From a virus, in the IMG/VR virus record IMGVR_UViG_3300027816_000180, positions 1 to 41,376 of that record: a DNA stretch of 41,376 bases; one strand, 5' to 3'. The first letter of the stretch is position 1. Every line of letters starts with the position of its first letter. The notes under the pieces are model-generated. The model had not been told where the DNA came from and did no database searches. It saw nothing but the letters and a program-made list of their open reading frames with translations. The position numbers and the translations under genes are program-made. Positions 4,052 to 31,746 of this stretch are shown here, one piece after another.

Positions 4052-4552
4052 TTATTCCTCCTTATACGCTCTATCGAAATATCCCTGTTTGTTTAATGTC
4101 CTTGCCGCAGAGATTCCTCCAGATAAAATAGACTGGCGACCTTGGCTCATGGCAGTTGTCATCCCAATTCTAGCGGCTCTCGATCTTTCTTCAGCCTCGG
4201 CCTGATATCCCATAGCAGTGAGAAACGCATTATTTCTAATTGTTTCAATTTCTTCAACACCCGCAGCAAATGCTTCCTCTTGAATCAAAGCTGCCGATCC
4301 TGTTCTTACATCAATTCCTTGCGCTGCAAATCCAGCTCTCTGAGATCCAACAATTTGATTGATTTTTTTCTGGGCTCTAATCGCATCAATCCCGCCTTGC
4401 CTTAAAATTTTTTGAGCTTGAAGCTCGGCATTTCGCTGATTAATTCTAGACATTTCATTTTGATAGTTAGCTTGAGCCTCCATTGAGGTCGCCTGTGCGA
4501 TACCTTGACCTAATTGCAAACCAGCCATTGCCGCAGCAAATTGCCAAGCCAT
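4052..4552 (-). CDS. Internal virion protein, T7 gp14-like
   Basis: The protein is 166 aa with an Ala/Gly/Gln-rich N-terminus (MAWQFAAAMAGLQLGQGIAQ) followed by a long helix rich in Gln, Ala and Arg. A central GxxAQGIDVRTGSA stretch is typical of the gp14-like family in podoviruses. In T7, gp14 leaves the virion and sits in the outer membrane to start the DNA channel; the same role is inferred here. It lies between the tail tubular protein B gene and the gp15-like gene, exactly as in T7-like late operons, separated from both by at most one base. The N-terminal amphipathic, small-residue helix would suit membrane insertion. Confidence 0.8.
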   Translation of the reverse strand: MAWQFAAAMAGLQLGQGIAQATSMEAQANYQNEMSRINQRNAELQAQKILRQGGIDAIRAQKKINQIVGSQRAGFAAQGIDVRTGSAALIQEEAFAAGVEEIETIRNNAFLTAMGYQAEAEERSRAARIGMTTAMSQGRQSILSGGISAARTLNKQGYFDRAYKEE

Positions 4553-7204
4553 TTAAGAACCTCCAGGAAATGGAATATAACCAGTGGGCGCAATACTTAA
4601 AATTGAACATGGAACAGGATCGGTCTGACGAATAAAAACCCGTCCATTGTTGTTCCAAGTCGCCTCTGTAATAATATCAATCGGATCTGTCTCAAGATCA
4701 ACAGGACTGTCATAAGGCTCATCTTCTCTTATTTTTAACTCTGTAAGCCCATCAAGAAATGAAACAGATTCATTTGGTGGCCTCGTGCCAGCCCAAAGTC
4801 CACGAGTGTTTTCAACAAACATTGACACTTTCGAAATAAGTTTGTTTCGATCAATCATTGTTGATGAACCAGGCATATCAATGTTTAACGTCTCAATGTC
4901 TGATGTAATCGGAATCCCTACATAAATGACAGCATAATTTTCTGTTAATGTTATTTGTCCATTTGTAACAGTAACTTGAACATAGGCGGGGTTATTTGGA
5001 TTTGCCACTACAAGACCATCGGAATAAACAGAAACAGATTGACCTTCAAGATGCCAAAGTCCGCTCAAAACATCCACGGCTCTCGCCCATTCATTTACGG
5101 CAACAGATCTTAAAGTGGTTGGAACAGTTCTATTTGGCCGTCCAGTTACAACGGTGCCAGACGTATAGGAATCAATTGTAAATCTAATTACTGAACCGTC
5201 AGTATCTATAAGTTGAATTTCATTTCCTACATCAGCCGTCGTAAAATAAGACGTGCTAGACGTTAAAGTCAAAGTATCCGTATAAAGCCAGCCAGACCCA
5301 GAAAGAGTCATTGTATGTGATCCGTTTGTATTTCTACCGTCATAAGATAAATGAGAATCAAGGATCGCAATGTCTCTGACATCTGAAATTTTTCTTGTGA
5401 CAAATTTTTCAATATATCTTCTTGTTTCTCCATTAACCACTCTTCGTATTGATAAATATAAAGTATCTTCTGAACCCTCAGGAATAGAACAAACACTCTC
5501 AACTACTCCATTTTCAAAATCATGCTGATGCCATGCAAGCATTTGCTGCTCTCTAATGTATGTCATGCCAAGCATCGTGCCGTCATCTCGAACCATCCAA
5601 AGTATTGAGTGAGGTATTTGCTGATAAGCCCAATCTAAAAGAGTGTAGTCATCAACCAAATGAGAACTATAAATTGAAAGTTCATCGCCAGTATAGTCAT
5701 TAGATTCAAATTTAAAATTGATGTCCCTAACATTATTGCCACGAGCTTGAACATATACCGCGCTATTTCCAATAACAATCGGAGATAAACGAGCATTAGA
5801 TCCATTGTAAGATGACTGTCTGGTATTGATAGCAGACGGCGTAAGCGTCCCACCATTATCACCATTTGCAACAAACTCGCCCGATTCTGTAAACATAAGA
5901 AGAACGCCAAGATCAACCAAGTGATGGACCTCATTAACCTGACGCCCAGATAAATTAAAAATAATAGCGTCATCATCTTGTATCGGATTAGAAGTTGAGA
6001 AGTCATAAAATGACGCTGTTTTTGATGCATAGACTTTTTCTATATCGTTATTTGTATTGGCTAAAACAAGCCTTTGTTGATAATAAGTAATGGCCGAAGG
6101 ATAATCCCCAGATGCATTAAAATCCTCTGTTATCCTTGGAGGAGTGTCAGCCGTGTTTATATCATAACCAATATCAACAAATGAAGTAACGCCGGATGCA
6201 ATACCAATAAAACCGAAAACTCCGTTTGTTTCTCTGTATATATTAAAATCTAATTGAGAAGCCGTAAATCCATAAAGCGAAGTCAAAGACCATGAAACTG
6301 TAATTGAGTTTGTCGAGCTAAGAGTGGCATTTCCATTTGTAACTGTCGCAAGATAAGCACCACTAGGAGGGACTGTTTTCAAAGTCGTCTCTTGTCCTGT
6401 TAGAGGATTAAATGCTGTTACTGTATATTTATAAGTCCTTGCGCCAGTCGTTCCATTTTGAACTGCAGTAATTGATGTAGGATAATCAATCTGAGCTTCA
6501 AATGTTATTGCAGCCAATGTCCAGCTTGCATCGCCAGTTCTGGACAAATTCTGAGGTGCATGTCCAGGGTGAACGATTGTCAGGACATCAGCAGATTGAA
6601 CAAACTTTAATTCTGATAAATCATTTTCAGAATACGGAGTTGTTATTTCATAAATCTCTTCAATTGTTCCGCCTGAAGTATACGCTCCAAATGAAGTTGA
6701 ATTCACATTTGTATTATTCATGTAGTGAATGTGAAATGTATTTGCAGTTGTATTCACATTCTTAACTATAAACTGTCTATTGTTTAAATAATTTCCCATC
6801 GGTCCAGATATGCCAGACAATAAAATATGATCATCATTTGCATAATTGTCCGCGCCTGAATAAGTAATTACAGCCGGATTCGCATTTGTAATTCCTGTTA
6901 TTGATTGACCATCTCTTTTTATATATTCGCCATTCTTAATTACGCGCATATAAAATCGGCCAAATTCTAGGCAATATGTTTGATTAACATTAAAAACAAA
7001 AGGGATTAATCTTACAGTTCTGTTTTGGTTTTTTGCCTCACCAACAAACTGAGTTCCCGGTCTGTTTGATACTCCGCCATGTCTCATGACATAAAAATTA
7101 CGACAAGTCCTTAATGCATTTTGATATTTTGCAACATCAGTTCGAGCATAAAGAGAAGGGCTCAACTCACCAGATGAGAAACTTTTTTGCATAATGGCCG
7201 TCAT
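4553..7204 (-). CDS. Tail tubular protein B / nozzle (T7 gp12-like)
   Basis: At 883 aa it is close to the usual length for gp12-like nozzle proteins. The N-terminus is diagnostic: QKSFSSGELSPSLYARTD, then a segment with CRNFYVMRHGGVSNRPGT and FVGEAKN, a pattern conserved across gp12-like proteins. The rest is beta-rich with Thr/Asn-rich loops, consistent with the beta-propeller fold of the nozzle. It forms the distal tail tube to which fibres attach and through which DNA leaves. The start is ATG at 7204, directly after the stop of the small upstream gene, and it is followed immediately by gp14-like. Nothing is missing or frameshifted. Confidence 0.93.
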   Translation of the reverse strand: MTAIMQKSFSSGELSPSLYARTDVAKYQNALRTCRNFYVMRHGGVSNRPGTQFVGEAKNQNRTVRLIPFVFNVNQTYCLEFGRFYMRVIKNGEYIKRDGQSITGITNANPAVITYSGADNYANDDHILLSGISGPMGNYLNNRQFIVKNVNTTANTFHIHYMNNTNVNSTSFGAYTSGGTIEEIYEITTPYSENDLSELKFVQSADVLTIVHPGHAPQNLSRTGDASWTLAAITFEAQIDYPTSITAVQNGTTGARTYKYTVTAFNPLTGQETTLKTVPPSGAYLATVTNGNATLSSTNSITVSWSLTSLYGFTASQLDFNIYRETNGVFGFIGIASGVTSFVDIGYDINTADTPPRITEDFNASGDYPSAITYYQQRLVLANTNNDIEKVYASKTASFYDFSTSNPIQDDDAIIFNLSGRQVNEVHHLVDLGVLLMFTESGEFVANGDNGGTLTPSAINTRQSSYNGSNARLSPIVIGNSAVYVQARGNNVRDINFKFESNDYTGDELSIYSSHLVDDYTLLDWAYQQIPHSILWMVRDDGTMLGMTYIREQQMLAWHQHDFENGVVESVCSIPEGSEDTLYLSIRRVVNGETRRYIEKFVTRKISDVRDIAILDSHLSYDGRNTNGSHTMTLSGSGWLYTDTLTLTSSTSYFTTADVGNEIQLIDTDGSVIRFTIDSYTSGTVVTGRPNRTVPTTLRSVAVNEWARAVDVLSGLWHLEGQSVSVYSDGLVVANPNNPAYVQVTVTNGQITLTENYAVIYVGIPITSDIETLNIDMPGSSTMIDRNKLISKVSMFVENTRGLWAGTRPPNESVSFLDGLTELKIREDEPYDSPVDLETDPIDIITEATWNNNGRVFIRQTDPVPCSILSIAPTGYIPFPGGS

Positions 7205-19278: not shown

Positions 19279-19812
19279 TTACTCTTTAGTTTTTTGCGTA
19301 TCCATAATAAGATCGTCAAGAGTTACCTTACCAGTATGCTCGACCTGCTCAGTCAAGAGCTTCAGGTTCTTGGCCTGCATCTCAATGGCCTTAACTTTAT
19401 CGATGAACTTAATCTTTTTCATGAAGCCAGTTTGAATGCGCTCTTGGCCTTTGCCTTCGAACATGTCGGCGACATCGACTCCGACAACAGCTTTAGCTAT
19501 TTCATCGGGCCATTCTTTTGGCGGCAGCACTGAGCCATCATCGGCCAGGATCTTTCTGATATCGAAGAACGAGAGCTCTCTGATCTCTTTCAAGATTCTT
19601 TCACGCGCCCATTCTTTGCGGTCCTCAAGAGCTTTATTATAAAGGTCAAGCTTTAACGCATCTTGCTCTATCCATTTCTTAATGGTCGTGTATCGAATGC
19701 GATGCAGAGCAGCAACATCAATTAATGATCCGCCTTCAGCAACAAATATACAAATTTTGTTTATCATATCTGGATCTGAAAAGAAGTCGTACTCGCGCTC
19801 GATTTGATTCAT
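19279..19812 (-). CDS. terS: Terminase small subunit
   Basis: The protein is 177 aa. The N-terminus carries a helix-turn-helix ([20 protein letters not shown], about residues 30-50). The oligomerisation and C-terminal part ([20 protein letters not shown], then [11 protein letters not shown] and [13 protein letters not shown]) matches Terminase_2-type small subunits. It recognises packaging DNA and regulates the large subunit two genes downstream. It is the first gene of the late operon; a promoter-like sequence and the iteron region lie just upstream. Confidence 0.88.
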
Positions 19813-19859: not shown

Positions 19860-20149
19860 GGTCACGGATGGTCACACTAGTCACACATAAAATCCATATA
19901 GGAATAAAATACGAGAATGCATGTGCAGTAACCGGCTTTATGGCGTGAGCACCGTGTTAGCGTGGGGCGTTATACAGCACTAGTAAATAAATTCTTAAAT
20001 CTTATAATTTATGTGTGACTATCTGTGACTCCGTGACCATACTATAAAATCAACTACTTAACGCACCGTAGTTATCCGTGACCTATGTGTGACCTATGTG
20101 TGACCTTTTAAAATTTGGTCACGGATCGGTCACGGATCGGTCACACATA
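19860..20149. promoter_or_regulatory. Iteron-rich non-coding region: candidate origin or master operator
   Basis: Bases 19813-20182 hold no convincing gene. They hold twelve GTGAC/GTCAC elements in four groups of three: GGTCAC-type at 19860-19889, GTGAC-type at 20011-20038, GTGACC-type at 20073-20105, and GGTCAC-type at 20117-20149. The outer two groups are spaced 8-10 bp, the inner two exactly 11 bp. The consensus is (T/G)AT(C/G)(C/T)GTGACC. A TATAAT box is at 20003-20008, and a GC-richer stretch lies at 19921-19980. The region separates replication and packaging genes. Confidence 0.8.
20073..20149. repeat. Inverted 3+3 iteron array with 11-bp period
   Basis: Three head-to-tail 11-mers (TATCCGTGACC, then TATGTGTGACC twice) occupy 20073-20105. 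An 11-bp AT-only spacer (TTTTAAAATTT) occupies 20106-20116. Three 11-mers in the opposite orientation (GGTCACGGATC twice, then GGTCACACATA) occupy 20117-20149. The whole is exactly seven 11-bp units, about one helical turn each, so bound proteins would line up on one face of the DNA. Confidence 0.92.
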
Positions 20150-20182: not shown

Positions 20183-20413
20183 ATGAGACTAATTAACACA
20201 CTGTGGTATTCGTACATAATCCAGGCCGCTGACAAGAGTAAGCGTGGACCAATTTGGGAAATAACATCACTCAAAAATGAATCTGATGAAGATAAACAAA
20301 TTATATTGAGTCGATTAAATAGCTTGGCAAAGTCAGAATTCTATATTAATTCTGAAGGTTGGCTTTATTCTAAGAATTATCTGTTTCATCAGAAATCTGA
20401 GTCCACACCCTAA
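20183..20413 (+). CDS. Possible small plus-strand protein beside the iteron array
   Basis: An open frame of 76 aa begins at ATG 20183, 34 bp beyond the iteron array, and ends 44 nt inside the 3' end of the convergent primase-helicase gene. The product (MRLINTLWYSYIIQAADKSK at the start; NSEGWLYSKNYLF near the end) has a mixed helix-strand pattern with aromatic residues, as in a small winged-helix domain. No good ribosome site precedes it. A frame extending upstream to 20096 would run through the iterons and is unlikely. If real, it is a candidate iteron-binding regulator. Confidence 0.4.
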   Translation: MRLINTLWYSYIIQAADKSKRGPIWEITSLKNESDEDKQIILSRLNSLAKSEFYINSEGWLYSKNYLFHQKSESTP

Positions 20414-22625
20414 TAACTTTCTTGTCTGTATTTTTAATAAACCTCTGCTCATATCCCAAAGCCTTAAGAGATTTCGATATAGATTTCTGAGCCCTAATAT
20501 CAAGCCTTGATGGATCACCTTGAAGGCCATCTATCCATACATCAGTTGTTGAGAATCTTTCTTTGCGGCCCTCCCATGGCTTCATAGGATTGCCAGTCTC
20601 AAGCCATTTAATTATTAACTCCTCGTATGGATCTTGCTCGCGTCTAGCCTCTTGCTCTTCTTTCGCCTGATCAGGCACCTCATGCCATGTGCATCCTTGT
20701 TCATACAGCCATAGAGCCTCAGCAAATAACTGATCACGGTTATCCTTTATGTATTCAATGTCACAGACTTTAACTCTGATCGGCCAAAACCTTCGACCTC
20801 CAGTTTCATCTTGCAAGTATTTATCTTTATTTGTGGTGCCGACAAAGACGCACGTCCTTGGAATATCCACAACTGATCTGCCATATGATGGCCTGTAGGT
20901 ATCAACCGAACAGCTTAGTTTTTTCTTAATTAAGGTCGAGTCTGATTTCCTGAACTGATCAAGCTCACCGAACTCGACTATCATTCTACCGACAAGACCT
21001 TGCTCGAAGTCCTTTGAATCAAGGGATGAGTTAGCCTCAGCGAACCAGTCACCTGCTAGGATCTTTAATGATGTGGATTTAAACGTCCCTTGGCCGCCCT
21101 CAAGTATGACCATCGTATCAACCTTGCAACCTGGATTCATGACCCTTGCAACAATAGAGATAAAGAAGTTTCTTGATACAGCTCTTGCATAATCTGAATC
21201 CTCAGCGCCCATCGCCTCTTGAAAGAACATCTGAACCCTTGGCGTTTGATCCCATCTGTGAGAGGTGATGTATTCCTTCACTTCGTTTCTTGGATTCTGA
21301 TAGGCAGCTATTTGTATTGCATCCCAGACGGTATCCTTTTTTAAGGTCGTGAGCTCATAGAACCCTTGAAGTCTTGCCGTGATCTGAAGCCATGAGATGT
21401 CATTAAGAGGACGGCGCTCGCCATTCCAGTCCATAAAAACTCTGTGATGAAAGGTATCAAACCAGATGTGAGATTTGAACTCATCCATGTAACATAATAT
21501 TTTTGCGATATTATCTGAAGAGATGGCGACCTTTCCGGTTTTCTCATTCATCTTAAGGCCTGCTTCGATGTACATTAAAGTCAGATTTCTTGAGACCTTA
21601 ACCTCAGTCTCAGATGCCTGCTCGTTTGGATTGCTTGGTTTTGCAGGCTCAGGATCTAGGACCTCAACGTTTGAATAGGTCTGAGGTTTTGTAATAGTTC
21701 GAACTAAAGGCTTAGCCCATGAGATAAGGCCCGCATGATCCATACCCTCTGATAAGGCATCAGCTGCATCCCAGCCGTCCGATTTATCCGTATCAATGAT
21801 TTTAACTTCGGCGCAATGATCGGCTAACAGAGAGGCGATATAGGCCATTGCCTTAATCCCTGCATCATCAGCGTCGGGCCATAGGAGTATCTTGCGGCCA
21901 TAGACAGATGTGAAATCAGCCTTAGATGCAGACTGAGATCCATTCGGCCAGGTCGTTGCTACATAGGCCGACGTGATTTTCATAGCAGCGTCTGCAGCCT
22001 TTTCCCCCTCGCAAATAAGAATAGGTTTGTCAGGATTTTTAAGAATTAAATCTAAGTTATATATAGGCCTTGGACTAGGCCATGCTCTTTGTACCCACCG
22101 GCCTGAGGTATCATAGCTGAAAGGCTTAAACTCCTTAGATCCATCGGGTAAATTGTACCTATAAATGTAGAATAGAGGATCACCTTGACCATCCCTGTAG
22201 CACCATGTATGACTCGGCCCAGATCCTAAATGGATTTGTTGTGGAGGGGCCGCGTTTGGTGGTGGTTTTATCAAAGCGGTCTTCTCTTTTTTAACGACCG
22301 GATAATTTAACTGCGGTCTAGGTTTATCACCAAGATATTTTTCCTTAAGTTCTCTGGCGGCCTGTCCGTTATTTAAGTTCTTACATTTTGCATAGTAAGA
22401 AATAATATCATGCCCTCTCTGGTTCGCATCAGCAAAGTCTGCCCACTTGCCAGAGGTTAAGTTAATTCTAAATGAGGTTCCTTTGCCGCCGAGGATACTT
22501 GCTGCAACGTACTCATTCCCCTTGATCTCGCCGCCTGGACATAGATCAAAGACAATAGAATTTATATGAGGACGCAGCTGTTCTGCGATCGCTTTAAAAT
22601 CAAAGTTCTGATTTTGGTTTGTCAT
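20370..22625 (-). CDS. Primase-helicase: TOPRIM plus VirE-type ATPase
   Basis: The protein is 751 aa. Residues 1-100 resemble a primase N-terminal domain (KGTSFRINLTSGKWADFADA) without a clear zinc site. A TOPRIM domain shows ICEGEK (Glu206) and WPDADDAG (Asp251, Asp253). The C-terminal half is a VirE-family P-loop ATPase: Walker A GGQGTFKS at 510-517, Walker B-like MIVEFGELDQF near 548-558, and the sensor region VFVGTTNKDKYL followed by GGRRFWPI. It would make primers and unwind DNA. The start overlaps the nuclease gene by 26 nt. It is the largest replication gene and ends 221 bp from the iteron array. Confidence 0.92.
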   Translation of the reverse strand: MTNQNQNFDFKAIAEQLRPHINSIVFDLCPGGEIKGNEYVAASILGGKGTSFRINLTSGKWADFADANQRGHDIISYYAKCKNLNNGQAARELKEKYLGDKPRPQLNYPVVKKEKTALIKPPPNAAPPQQIHLGSGPSHTWCYRDGQGDPLFYIYRYNLPDGSKEFKPFSYDTSGRWVQRAWPSPRPIYNLDLILKNPDKPILICEGEKAADAAMKITSAYVATTWPNGSQSASKADFTSVYGRKILLWPDADDAGIKAMAYIASLLADHCAEVKIIDTDKSDGWDAADALSEGMDHAGLISWAKPLVRTITKPQTYSNVEVLDPEPAKPSNPNEQASETEVKVSRNLTLMYIEAGLKMNEKTGKVAISSDNIAKILCYMDEFKSHIWFDTFHHRVFMDWNGERRPLNDISWLQITARLQGFYELTTLKKDTVWDAIQIAAYQNPRNEVKEYITSHRWDQTPRVQMFFQEAMGAEDSDYARAVSRNFFISIVARVMNPGCKVDTMVILEGGQGTFKSTSLKILAGDWFAEANSSLDSKDFEQGLVGRMIVEFGELDQFRKSDSTLIKKKLSCSVDTYRPSYGRSVVDIPRTCVFVGTTNKDKYLQDETGGRRFWPIRVKVCDIEYIKDNRDQLFAEALWLYEQGCTWHEVPDQAKEEQEARREQDPYEELIIKWLETGNPMKPWEGRKERFSTTDVWIDGLQGDPSRLDIRAQKSISKSLKALGYEQRFIKNTDKKVIRVWTQISDETDNS

Positions 22626-23037
22626 TTATCGTCTCTGCTCGTTGTTCATTTAAATCATCCAATGAATAAATAATCTTCCCGATGCCGCCAGCTTTTTGAA
22701 CGGCATTGATAAACGCGATCTGCTCAGGGCTCGCTTTAAACCCTAGAGTCTTGCATTCGATAGCTGTAAAGACTGCGACCTTAGTACCGACCATGTCTGG
22801 AGTAATTGTTTTCGTCGTCCAGCCAATAAGATCGGAGCTCCCTTTACAAAGGCCAGCATGAAGAGGACGTGCGTTTTTTATAATGACATCTTGAGGTGTG
22901 ATTCTCACTGAGGTTTCCATCGGAGGCTTAAAGAATTTATTTCCTACCCAGCCAAAACCAGTGTTTTGTCTAAAGATCCTGTTTCCTGTTTCAGTAAAGT
23001 AATACTGAACAAGGTTGATAAGTTCTTTTTCGCTCAT
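22600..23037 (-). CDS. VRR-NUC domain nuclease
   Basis: The protein is 145 aa, the size of a lone VRR-NUC domain. The PD-(D/E)xK residues are visible: GSSDLIGW (Asp69) and AIECKT (Glu94, Lys96), followed by the family's ASPEQIAFINAVQKAGG motif. These act as structure-specific or Holliday-junction nucleases in phages. It is coupled to the gene before it (ATGA) and overlaps the primase-helicase start, so it probably works in replication or recombination intermediate processing. Confidence 0.9.
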   Translation of the reverse strand: MSEKELINLVQYYFTETGNRIFRQNTGFGWVGNKFFKPPMETSVRITPQDVIIKNARPLHAGLCKGSSDLIGWTTKTITPDMVGTKVAVFTAIECKTLGFKASPEQIAFINAVQKAGGIGKIIYSLDDLNEQRAETINDKPKSEL

Positions 23038-23354
23038 AAAGAAGCCTCGTAATCACGAATGTTGCCAAGCAAATCTTCAGCAAATCTAATTTCTGATTCA
23101 CTCACAGTGCCAGATATTACCGCCGTCAAAAAAGATCTCATTGAAGGAGGATAATTTTTCAAACCCCTTAAGCTTAAAGCTTTTACGATTAAAGGCTTTC
23201 GAAGATTTTCATAGGCGACCTGTCCTAAAGTATTATCGTCACCTTTATACCCGGCCAATCTAGCGGCTTCAGTTCCATTACCCTCATAAAAATTAACAAA
23301 GAGCTGTTGTTTTACAGTCAGCCCGATCTTATTTACAGACACACTAGCCCCCAA
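23034..23354 (-). CDS. TerS-like helix-turn-helix protein
   Basis: The protein is up to 106 aa. The first half (LTVKQQLFVNFYEGNGTEAA, then RLAGY and LRKPLIVKA) is the DNA-binding signature of Terminase_2-type small subunits. The second half (about residues 65-106) is short and helical, without the usual oligomerisation region. The start is uncertain: TTG at 23354 or GTG at 23342, both weakly supported. It sits among replication genes, far from the large terminase, and the phage has another TerS at 19279-19812. It may be a DNA-binding regulator or a displaced packaging factor. Confidence 0.7.
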   Translation of the reverse strand: MGASVSVNKIGLTVKQQLFVNFYEGNGTEAARLAGYKGDDNTLGQVAYENLRKPLIVKALSLRGLKNYPPSMRSFLTAVISGTVSESEIRFAEDLLGNIRDYEASL

Positions 23355-28183: not shown

Positions 28184-28476
28184 AAAATTTCCCGAATAAT
28201 TATTTTTTCCCAAACTTCAGCAGTTTGACCTGGGTCAATCGTACAAAAAGCATTCATGCCTTTATGATACCACACAGTCCACTCTCGAGGATCTTTTGGA
28301 GTTTGATATATTTCCCACTTTAATCTCATTTCAAAAACAGAAATATATGTTTCCATTTCTCTTTGATTTTCCAACACTCCATGTTTATTTAAAAAAACAT
28401 ATTCAAACTTGTCCCATCCATCGCATCTTACTTTATGGCCATCTAATAGCGCTTGCATTGCCTGTGTAAAAGTCAT
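28180..28476 (-). CDS. DUF2829/Tad2-like N-terminal motif protein
   Basis: The protein is 98 aa. The start is ATG 28476 with GGAG 6 nt upstream. The N-terminus MTFTQAMQALLDGHKVRCDG, then W and YVFLNKHG, resembles the start of DUF2829 proteins, some of which (Tad2) sequester Thoeris signalling molecules. The second half (RLKWEIYQTPKDPREWTVWY) does not clearly follow that family. I infer a ligand-binding small protein; an anti-defence role is a possibility only. Confidence 0.5.
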   Translation of the reverse strand: MTFTQAMQALLDGHKVRCDGWDKFEYVFLNKHGVLENQREMETYISVFEMRLKWEIYQTPKDPREWTVWYHKGMNAFCTIDPGQTAEVWEKIIIREIL

Positions 28477-31688: not shown

Positions 31689-31746
31689 GGTCACACATAT
31701 TCACTTAAAGAAAAGCGTTGACTGAAAAATAGGACAAAGGTTTAGT
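31689..31746 (+). promoter_or_regulatory. Divergent promoter region with a lone iteron copy
   Basis: TTGACT at 31718-31723 and TTTAGT at 31741-31746, 17 nt apart, form a sigma70-like promoter for the plus-strand cluster. Just upstream, 31689-31699 (GGTCACACATA) is identical to the outer iteron of the 20073-20149 array. The ribosome site of the first plus gene (AGAGG) follows. Confidence 0.55.

Follow-up and report, generated by a model that had tools for sequence, protein, structure and literature searches.

Repeats set in opposed orientations beside a phage replication gene raise the question of what they serve: the start of replication, the control of the neighboring genes, the packaging of DNA, or merely the folding of a strand. 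Here, we describe such an array in a 41-kb virus contig (IMG/VR record IMGVR_UViG_3300027816_000180, positions 1-41,376), the whole of which was analyzed and is referred to as the window. Its genes include RecET-type recombination genes, nucleases, and head and tail genes, and no DNA polymerase was seen among the window genes scanned. The array lies between a primase-helicase gene of the VapE type and the terminase operon, as an earlier reading of the letters (the first-pass annotation) had placed it. We consider it highly probable that the array is the replication origin of the phage, of the self-loading-helicase type, and that the adjacent helicase binds it as initiator.

Architecture of the array

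The segment first reported, which begins at T3 and ends with T4 (Table 1), consists of seven 11-bp registers over 77 bp: three units, an AT-only spacer, and three units in the opposite orientation. In order, the registers are TATCCGTGACC, TATGTGTGACC, TATGTGTGACC, the spacer TTTTAAAATTT, GGTCACGGATC, GGTCACGGATC and GGTCACACATA. The 3+3 inverted arrangement with its 11-bp period is as the first-pass annotation described it and is far above chance. The ‘seven exact units’ of that description are exact in their 11-bp length and not in their sequence, as the GGTCAC core is the sole invariant part of the T3/T4 units and the outer half is either ACATA or GGAT(C). The reported extent captured a real feature that is half of the structure, with the triplets T1 and T2 overlooked. 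A scan for the core gives the whole as four triplets with 12 GTGAC/GTCAC cores at 19861-20144.

Table 1. Features of the array and its surroundings in the window
Feature	Position	Strand	Description
Terminase small subunit, TerS	19279-19812	-	177 aa; opens the late operon, across the array from the helicase gene
Iteron triplet T1	19860-19889	-	GGTCACGGAT GGTCACACTA GTCACACATA; three reverse units, 9-10 bp period
TATA(N)GG element	19894-19900	-	CCTATATGG on the - strand; distal tract edge, next to T1 and facing TerS
AT-rich tract	19971-20025		Candidate DNA-unwinding element between T1 and T2; least stable duplex of the window
Iteron triplet T2	20010-20038	+	TATGTGTGAC TATCTGTGAC TCCGTGACC; three forward units, 8-10 bp period
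Iteron triplet T3	20073-20105	+	Three 11-bp units; first half of the originally reported array
AT-only spacer T3/T4	20106-20116		11 bp
Iteron triplet T4	20117-20149	-	Three 11-bp units; second half of the originally reported array
76-aa ORF	20183-20413	+	Convergent with the helicase gene, between the helicase stop and the array; kept in L005 and L006
Primase-helicase	20370-22625	-	751 aa; Toprim-like region, VapE AAA+ domain and C-terminal winged-helix-like domain; candidate initiator
Helicase C-terminal domain	20370-20678	-	Residues 650-751; candidate iteron reader

Chance would put 0.30 cores in 284 bp, where 12 are present (P about 9e-16); the richest stretch of this length in 200 shuffles had 5. 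The GTGAC triplet pattern with the T3/T4 spacing occurs twice in the window and never in 100 shuffles. The core scan gave no further cluster elsewhere in the window, and the exact T3 repeat is confined, among viral contigs, to three near-identical contigs. A lone further copy of ATGTGTGACC sits at 31689-31698 on the minus strand, inside the gap that separates two divergent genes (31681 and 31762). T3/T4 starts about 220 bp past the stop codon of the helicase gene, with the small convergent ORF in between; this ORF has no Pfam match.

Duplex stability was obtained from a nearest-neighbor calculation in 40-bp windows, with the whole window as reference. Between T2 and T1, which have opposite orientations, the duplex is at its least stable in the whole window: the tract at 19971-20025 is within the lowest 0.2-0.4% of 40-bp windows. 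The 11-bp AT core had earlier been proposed as a place where the duplex could melt. It is unlikely to be the only such place, because its surroundings are comparatively stable (40-bp windows over the spacer are stabler than about 80-94% of the window) and 19971-20025 is far weaker. At the tract edge next to T1, the TATA(N)GG element is one that recurs beside the array in loci L005, L006, L012 and L044; downstream of the helicase, the whole locus set has 17 such elements against 6.8 in shuffles. This TATATGG is a candidate -10 or melting-edge element.

Origins of the DnaA-dependent iteron plasmid type have DnaA boxes beside the iterons. None (TTWTNCACA) occurs within the array region, and the single match in the window is at 28463. 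The GC skew is uninformative, as its sign never changes across the window.

The adjacent helicase

The VapE AAA+ domain of the helicase matches PF05272 with an E-value of 1e-71. The closest solved structure is 7pds (profile E 6e-87, single sequence E 7e-44), which, from the title of the structure and general knowledge, we take to be PriRep1 of SaPI1 bound to DNA. A fold search against 7pds gave an E-value of 3e-29 over about 450 columns, and the next matches after it were NrS-1, poxvirus D5-type helicases and the PriRep of SaPI5. By these sequence and fold comparisons, the protein is a member of the self-loading initiator-helicase class. The first-pass annotation had seen no initiator of a known class in this phage, a statement that the 7pds match of the adjacent VapE helicase overturns.

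For the C-terminal 100 residues of the helicase, the prediction is three helices followed by a beta-hairpin, a topology like that of winged helices. When the isolated C-terminal domain was searched with Foldseek, winged-helix folds were among the best matches, the best of all having an E-value of 0.07, which is not significant. Across 24 loci, a comparison of the iteron cores with the divergence of this domain gave a Mantel p of 0.33, i.e. no signal of covariation beyond relatedness, and the assignment of the reader domain therefore rests on precedent. The Rep protein of SaPI and Cch2 of SCCmec read downstream iterons through their C-terminal domain (PMC7581432). By analogy, the reader of the iterons in the window is probably the small winged-helix-like C-terminal domain of the helicase.

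Layout and repeat code in close relatives

The helicase is practically identical in three contigs. More distant versions share 82% (L005), 62% (L006) and about 47% (L012) identity with that of the window, and all three loci have an array at the same place, with the core GTGTACA in L005 and GTAGACA in L006 and L012. A counterpart of T1 is also found at the same place in L005 and L006, again with other cores. The gap between T1 and T2 is 124 bp in the window, 125 bp in L005 and 126 bp in L006; that between T3 and T2 is 37, 37 and 31 bp, respectively. As place and gaps are held while the cores differ, it is the layout that is conserved and not the repeat sequence. The first-pass annotation had staked its proposal in part on conservation in related phages, and this expectation is borne out for the layout and fails for the sequence. 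No cultured phage gave a nucleotide match to positions 17-24 kb of the window.

The neighboring genes are kept to different degrees. The 76-aa ORF is retained in L005 (81%) and L006 (36%) and was not found in L012. L005 and L006 also keep TerS, whose HTH is nearly identical between the window and L005. A further relative, L015, has an array after its helicase gene, has no 76-aa gene, and carries TerS 2 kb away.

Within the replication operon of the window, a 106-aa protein (23034-23354, minus strand) contains the N-terminal, HTH-bearing portion of Terminase_2 (PF03592, positions 1-49), in addition to the 177-aa TerS. L005 and L006 lack it at this position and have the VRR-NUC gene directly after that of the SF2 helicase.

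Alternative readings of the array

The array occupies the intergenic space between genes transcribed divergently, a position that would suit a regulatory site, and the conserved TATATGG next to T1 faces TerS. Both features would fit an operator array, at which the 76-aa product or an HTH protein gates the divergent promoters of TerS and the 76-aa gene as an early/late switch, with replication starting elsewhere. We find this improbable, since arrays 3' of the helicase gene persist without the 76-aa gene (L012, L015) and before unrelated genes, the helicase accompanies the array whereas no gene for a regulator was seen to do so, and a simple promoter scan at the array gave nothing above shuffles. 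An operator role could nevertheless coexist with that of an origin. Because T1 adjoins the TATATGG facing TerS, binding of the initiator might, at a weak guess, also damp late transcription, and a side role of the array at the late promoter is thus possible.

The binding sites of TerS proteins are often located within or close to the gene for the protein itself, and here the TerS gene starts 47 bp from T1, which would agree with a packaging site (a pac/cos region) recognized by the product of the adjacent gene. Yet TerS is highly conserved (74-83% identity across the window, L005 and L006) while the repeat core changes, and other loci have the array after the helicase gene and away from TerS, so that we give a packaging site very little credence. 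The same conservation pattern, with the loci that lack these genes, also disfavors TerS and the 76-aa protein as binders. Both had been suggested by the first-pass annotation, and neither is likely, as the array stays with the helicase when they are absent or replaced.

The least credible reading, in our judgment, takes the inverted repeat of T3/T4 as a DNA or RNA hairpin (a terminator or a cruciform) instead of a set of protein sites. The strand does fold better than shuffles (z -3.9), but the GGAT and ACATA halves are not complementary across the axis, so that pairing is essentially limited to the GGTCAC cores. With about 120 bp between them, T1 and T2 form no local hairpin. Moreover, no terminator-like site was found, and the relatives keep the layout with other cores. 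The terminator or hairpin reading was rejected on the grounds that the variable half-units are not complementary.

Comparison with known origins and proposed mechanism

Origins of the self-loading-helicase type have precedents in phage satellites and in a few phages. Phage-inducible chromosomal islands (PICIs) have theirs immediately downstream of rep, as two sets of iterons with AT-rich DNA between them; a plasmid with pri and ori replicates, and both parts are required (PMC6092414). The array of the window resembles the SaPI/PICI origins in lying directly 3' of a gene for a self-loading helicase of the same class, in its short, opposed iteron sets flanking AT-rich DNA, and in an iteron sequence that varies between elements. 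The adjacent VapE/D5-class helicase likewise has a C-terminal domain, winged-helix-like by prediction, with a weak fold match of its own. It differs from them in its four triplets with the GGTCAC core and in the N-terminal Toprim-like region of its helicase. PICIs and other phage satellites are dependent on a helper and are without a full set of structural and terminase genes, whereas the window has its own terminase (TerS and TerL), a head-tail adaptor, and head and tail genes, and is therefore a phage and not a PICI.

The origin of Streptococcus phage Sfi21 is given as a 302-bp non-coding region in a later paper that cites the original work (Foley et al. 1998 as cited in PMC6356513). As annotated, it comes right after a D5/DUF5906 helicase gene; within it, we located AGTAAC iterons that are inverted around an AT tract. 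Sfi21 thus offers a likeness in a phage, with the origin immediately 3' of the helicase gene and inverted iteron sets around an AT-rich tract; it differs in its core, in its host, and in a helicase of the DUF5906/Pox_D5 branch rather than VapE. In P4, crr (4291-4590) is 45 bp 3' of the gene for the helicase-primase alpha (stop at 4636) and has iterons in both orientations. P4 also carries, about 4.7 kb off, another annotated site (ori) with the same repeats (core GGTGAACA), whereas the window showed a single cluster of its core. Origins of the lambda type have iterons beside an AT-rich tract that are read by the phage initiator O. The iterons of lambda are located within the O gene, whose product is not a helicase; in the window, by contrast, the candidate initiator is the helicase itself and the array is 3' of its gene. 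Support for the candidate origin of the first-pass annotation is good, as relatives conserve its position and layout, and helicase-linked origins are known from SaPI/PICI, P4 and Sfi21.

From these analogies, we infer how replication may start at the array. The helicase would bind the four GGTCAC iteron triplets, probably through its C-terminal winged-helix-like domain, and would assemble as hexamers, for which twelve sites would suit two. It would then melt the AT-rich tract between T2 and T1 and load itself there, going on to act as the replicative helicase while a host DNA polymerase copies the DNA. The convergent T3/T4, nearest the helicase gene, may be an additional binding block.

Wider survey of helicase loci

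To place the locus among others, we assembled 80 viral loci and 80 genome loci that encode related proteins, which were reduced to 49 and 68 non-redundant loci, and took the strongest 6-mer cluster of each locus and its position relative to the helicase gene. The proteins of the genome loci are more distant, and many match in the N-terminal half only. The strongest short-repeat cluster was just 3' of the helicase in 22.8 of the 49 viral loci (4.1 expected) and 20.7 of the 68 genome loci (5.8 expected). When only loci with a clear cluster are counted, the figures become 19.7 of 31 for the viral set (2.5 expected) and 19.2 of 42 for the genome set (3.6 expected). About half of the relatives are without the 3' array by the positional test; a 7-mer test misses degenerate arrays such as that of L015.

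Among cultured VapE phages, Pd_22F (Paenibacillus) has eleven GTTGAC-type sites immediately 3' of its helicase gene, and vB_Pae_U5 (Pseudomonas) has triplets one ORF further on. Four others, Mica, Aval, VarioGold and BT638P6, failed the 3' motif test, as about half of the relatives did, and the arrangement is therefore not universal. On direct reading, many loci show two iteron sets with a period of about 9 bp around an AT-rich or purine-pyrimidine tract immediately after the stop codon, with cores such as GTTCC (L053), GTTTCC (L072), GTAAC (L042), CTCGCC (L044), GTTGGGAA (L086) and GTATGGAA (L114). The next recognizable gene after the array differs from locus to locus, being that of the terminase small subunit, of SSB, of a phosphoesterase or of a tail protein, and since the array persists whichever gene follows, it goes with the helicase. 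Satellite-type origins are thus common in tailed phages, 3' of the genes for VapE-type helicases, in support of a replicon that satellites and phages share.

A more speculative idea, which we hold to be rather unlikely as it stands, is that VapE-helicase phages carry an origin module of fixed layout and replaceable code. Between close relatives, the triplets and their spacing would stay fixed as the core of the iterons is rewritten (GTGAC becomes GTGTACA where the helicases are 82% identical). What selects for this would perhaps be an escape from cross-recognition, whether by related phages, by satellites or by origin-decoy resistance. Because layout and spacing are kept and the core is changed, the near relatives offer natural swap pairs for probing concerted change in the specificity of initiator helicase and origin.

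Not every locus has AT-rich DNA between its two inner iteron sets: in L086, L091 and L114, an alternating purine-pyrimidine sequence (CACACA/CGCG), a possible former of left-handed DNA, takes its place.
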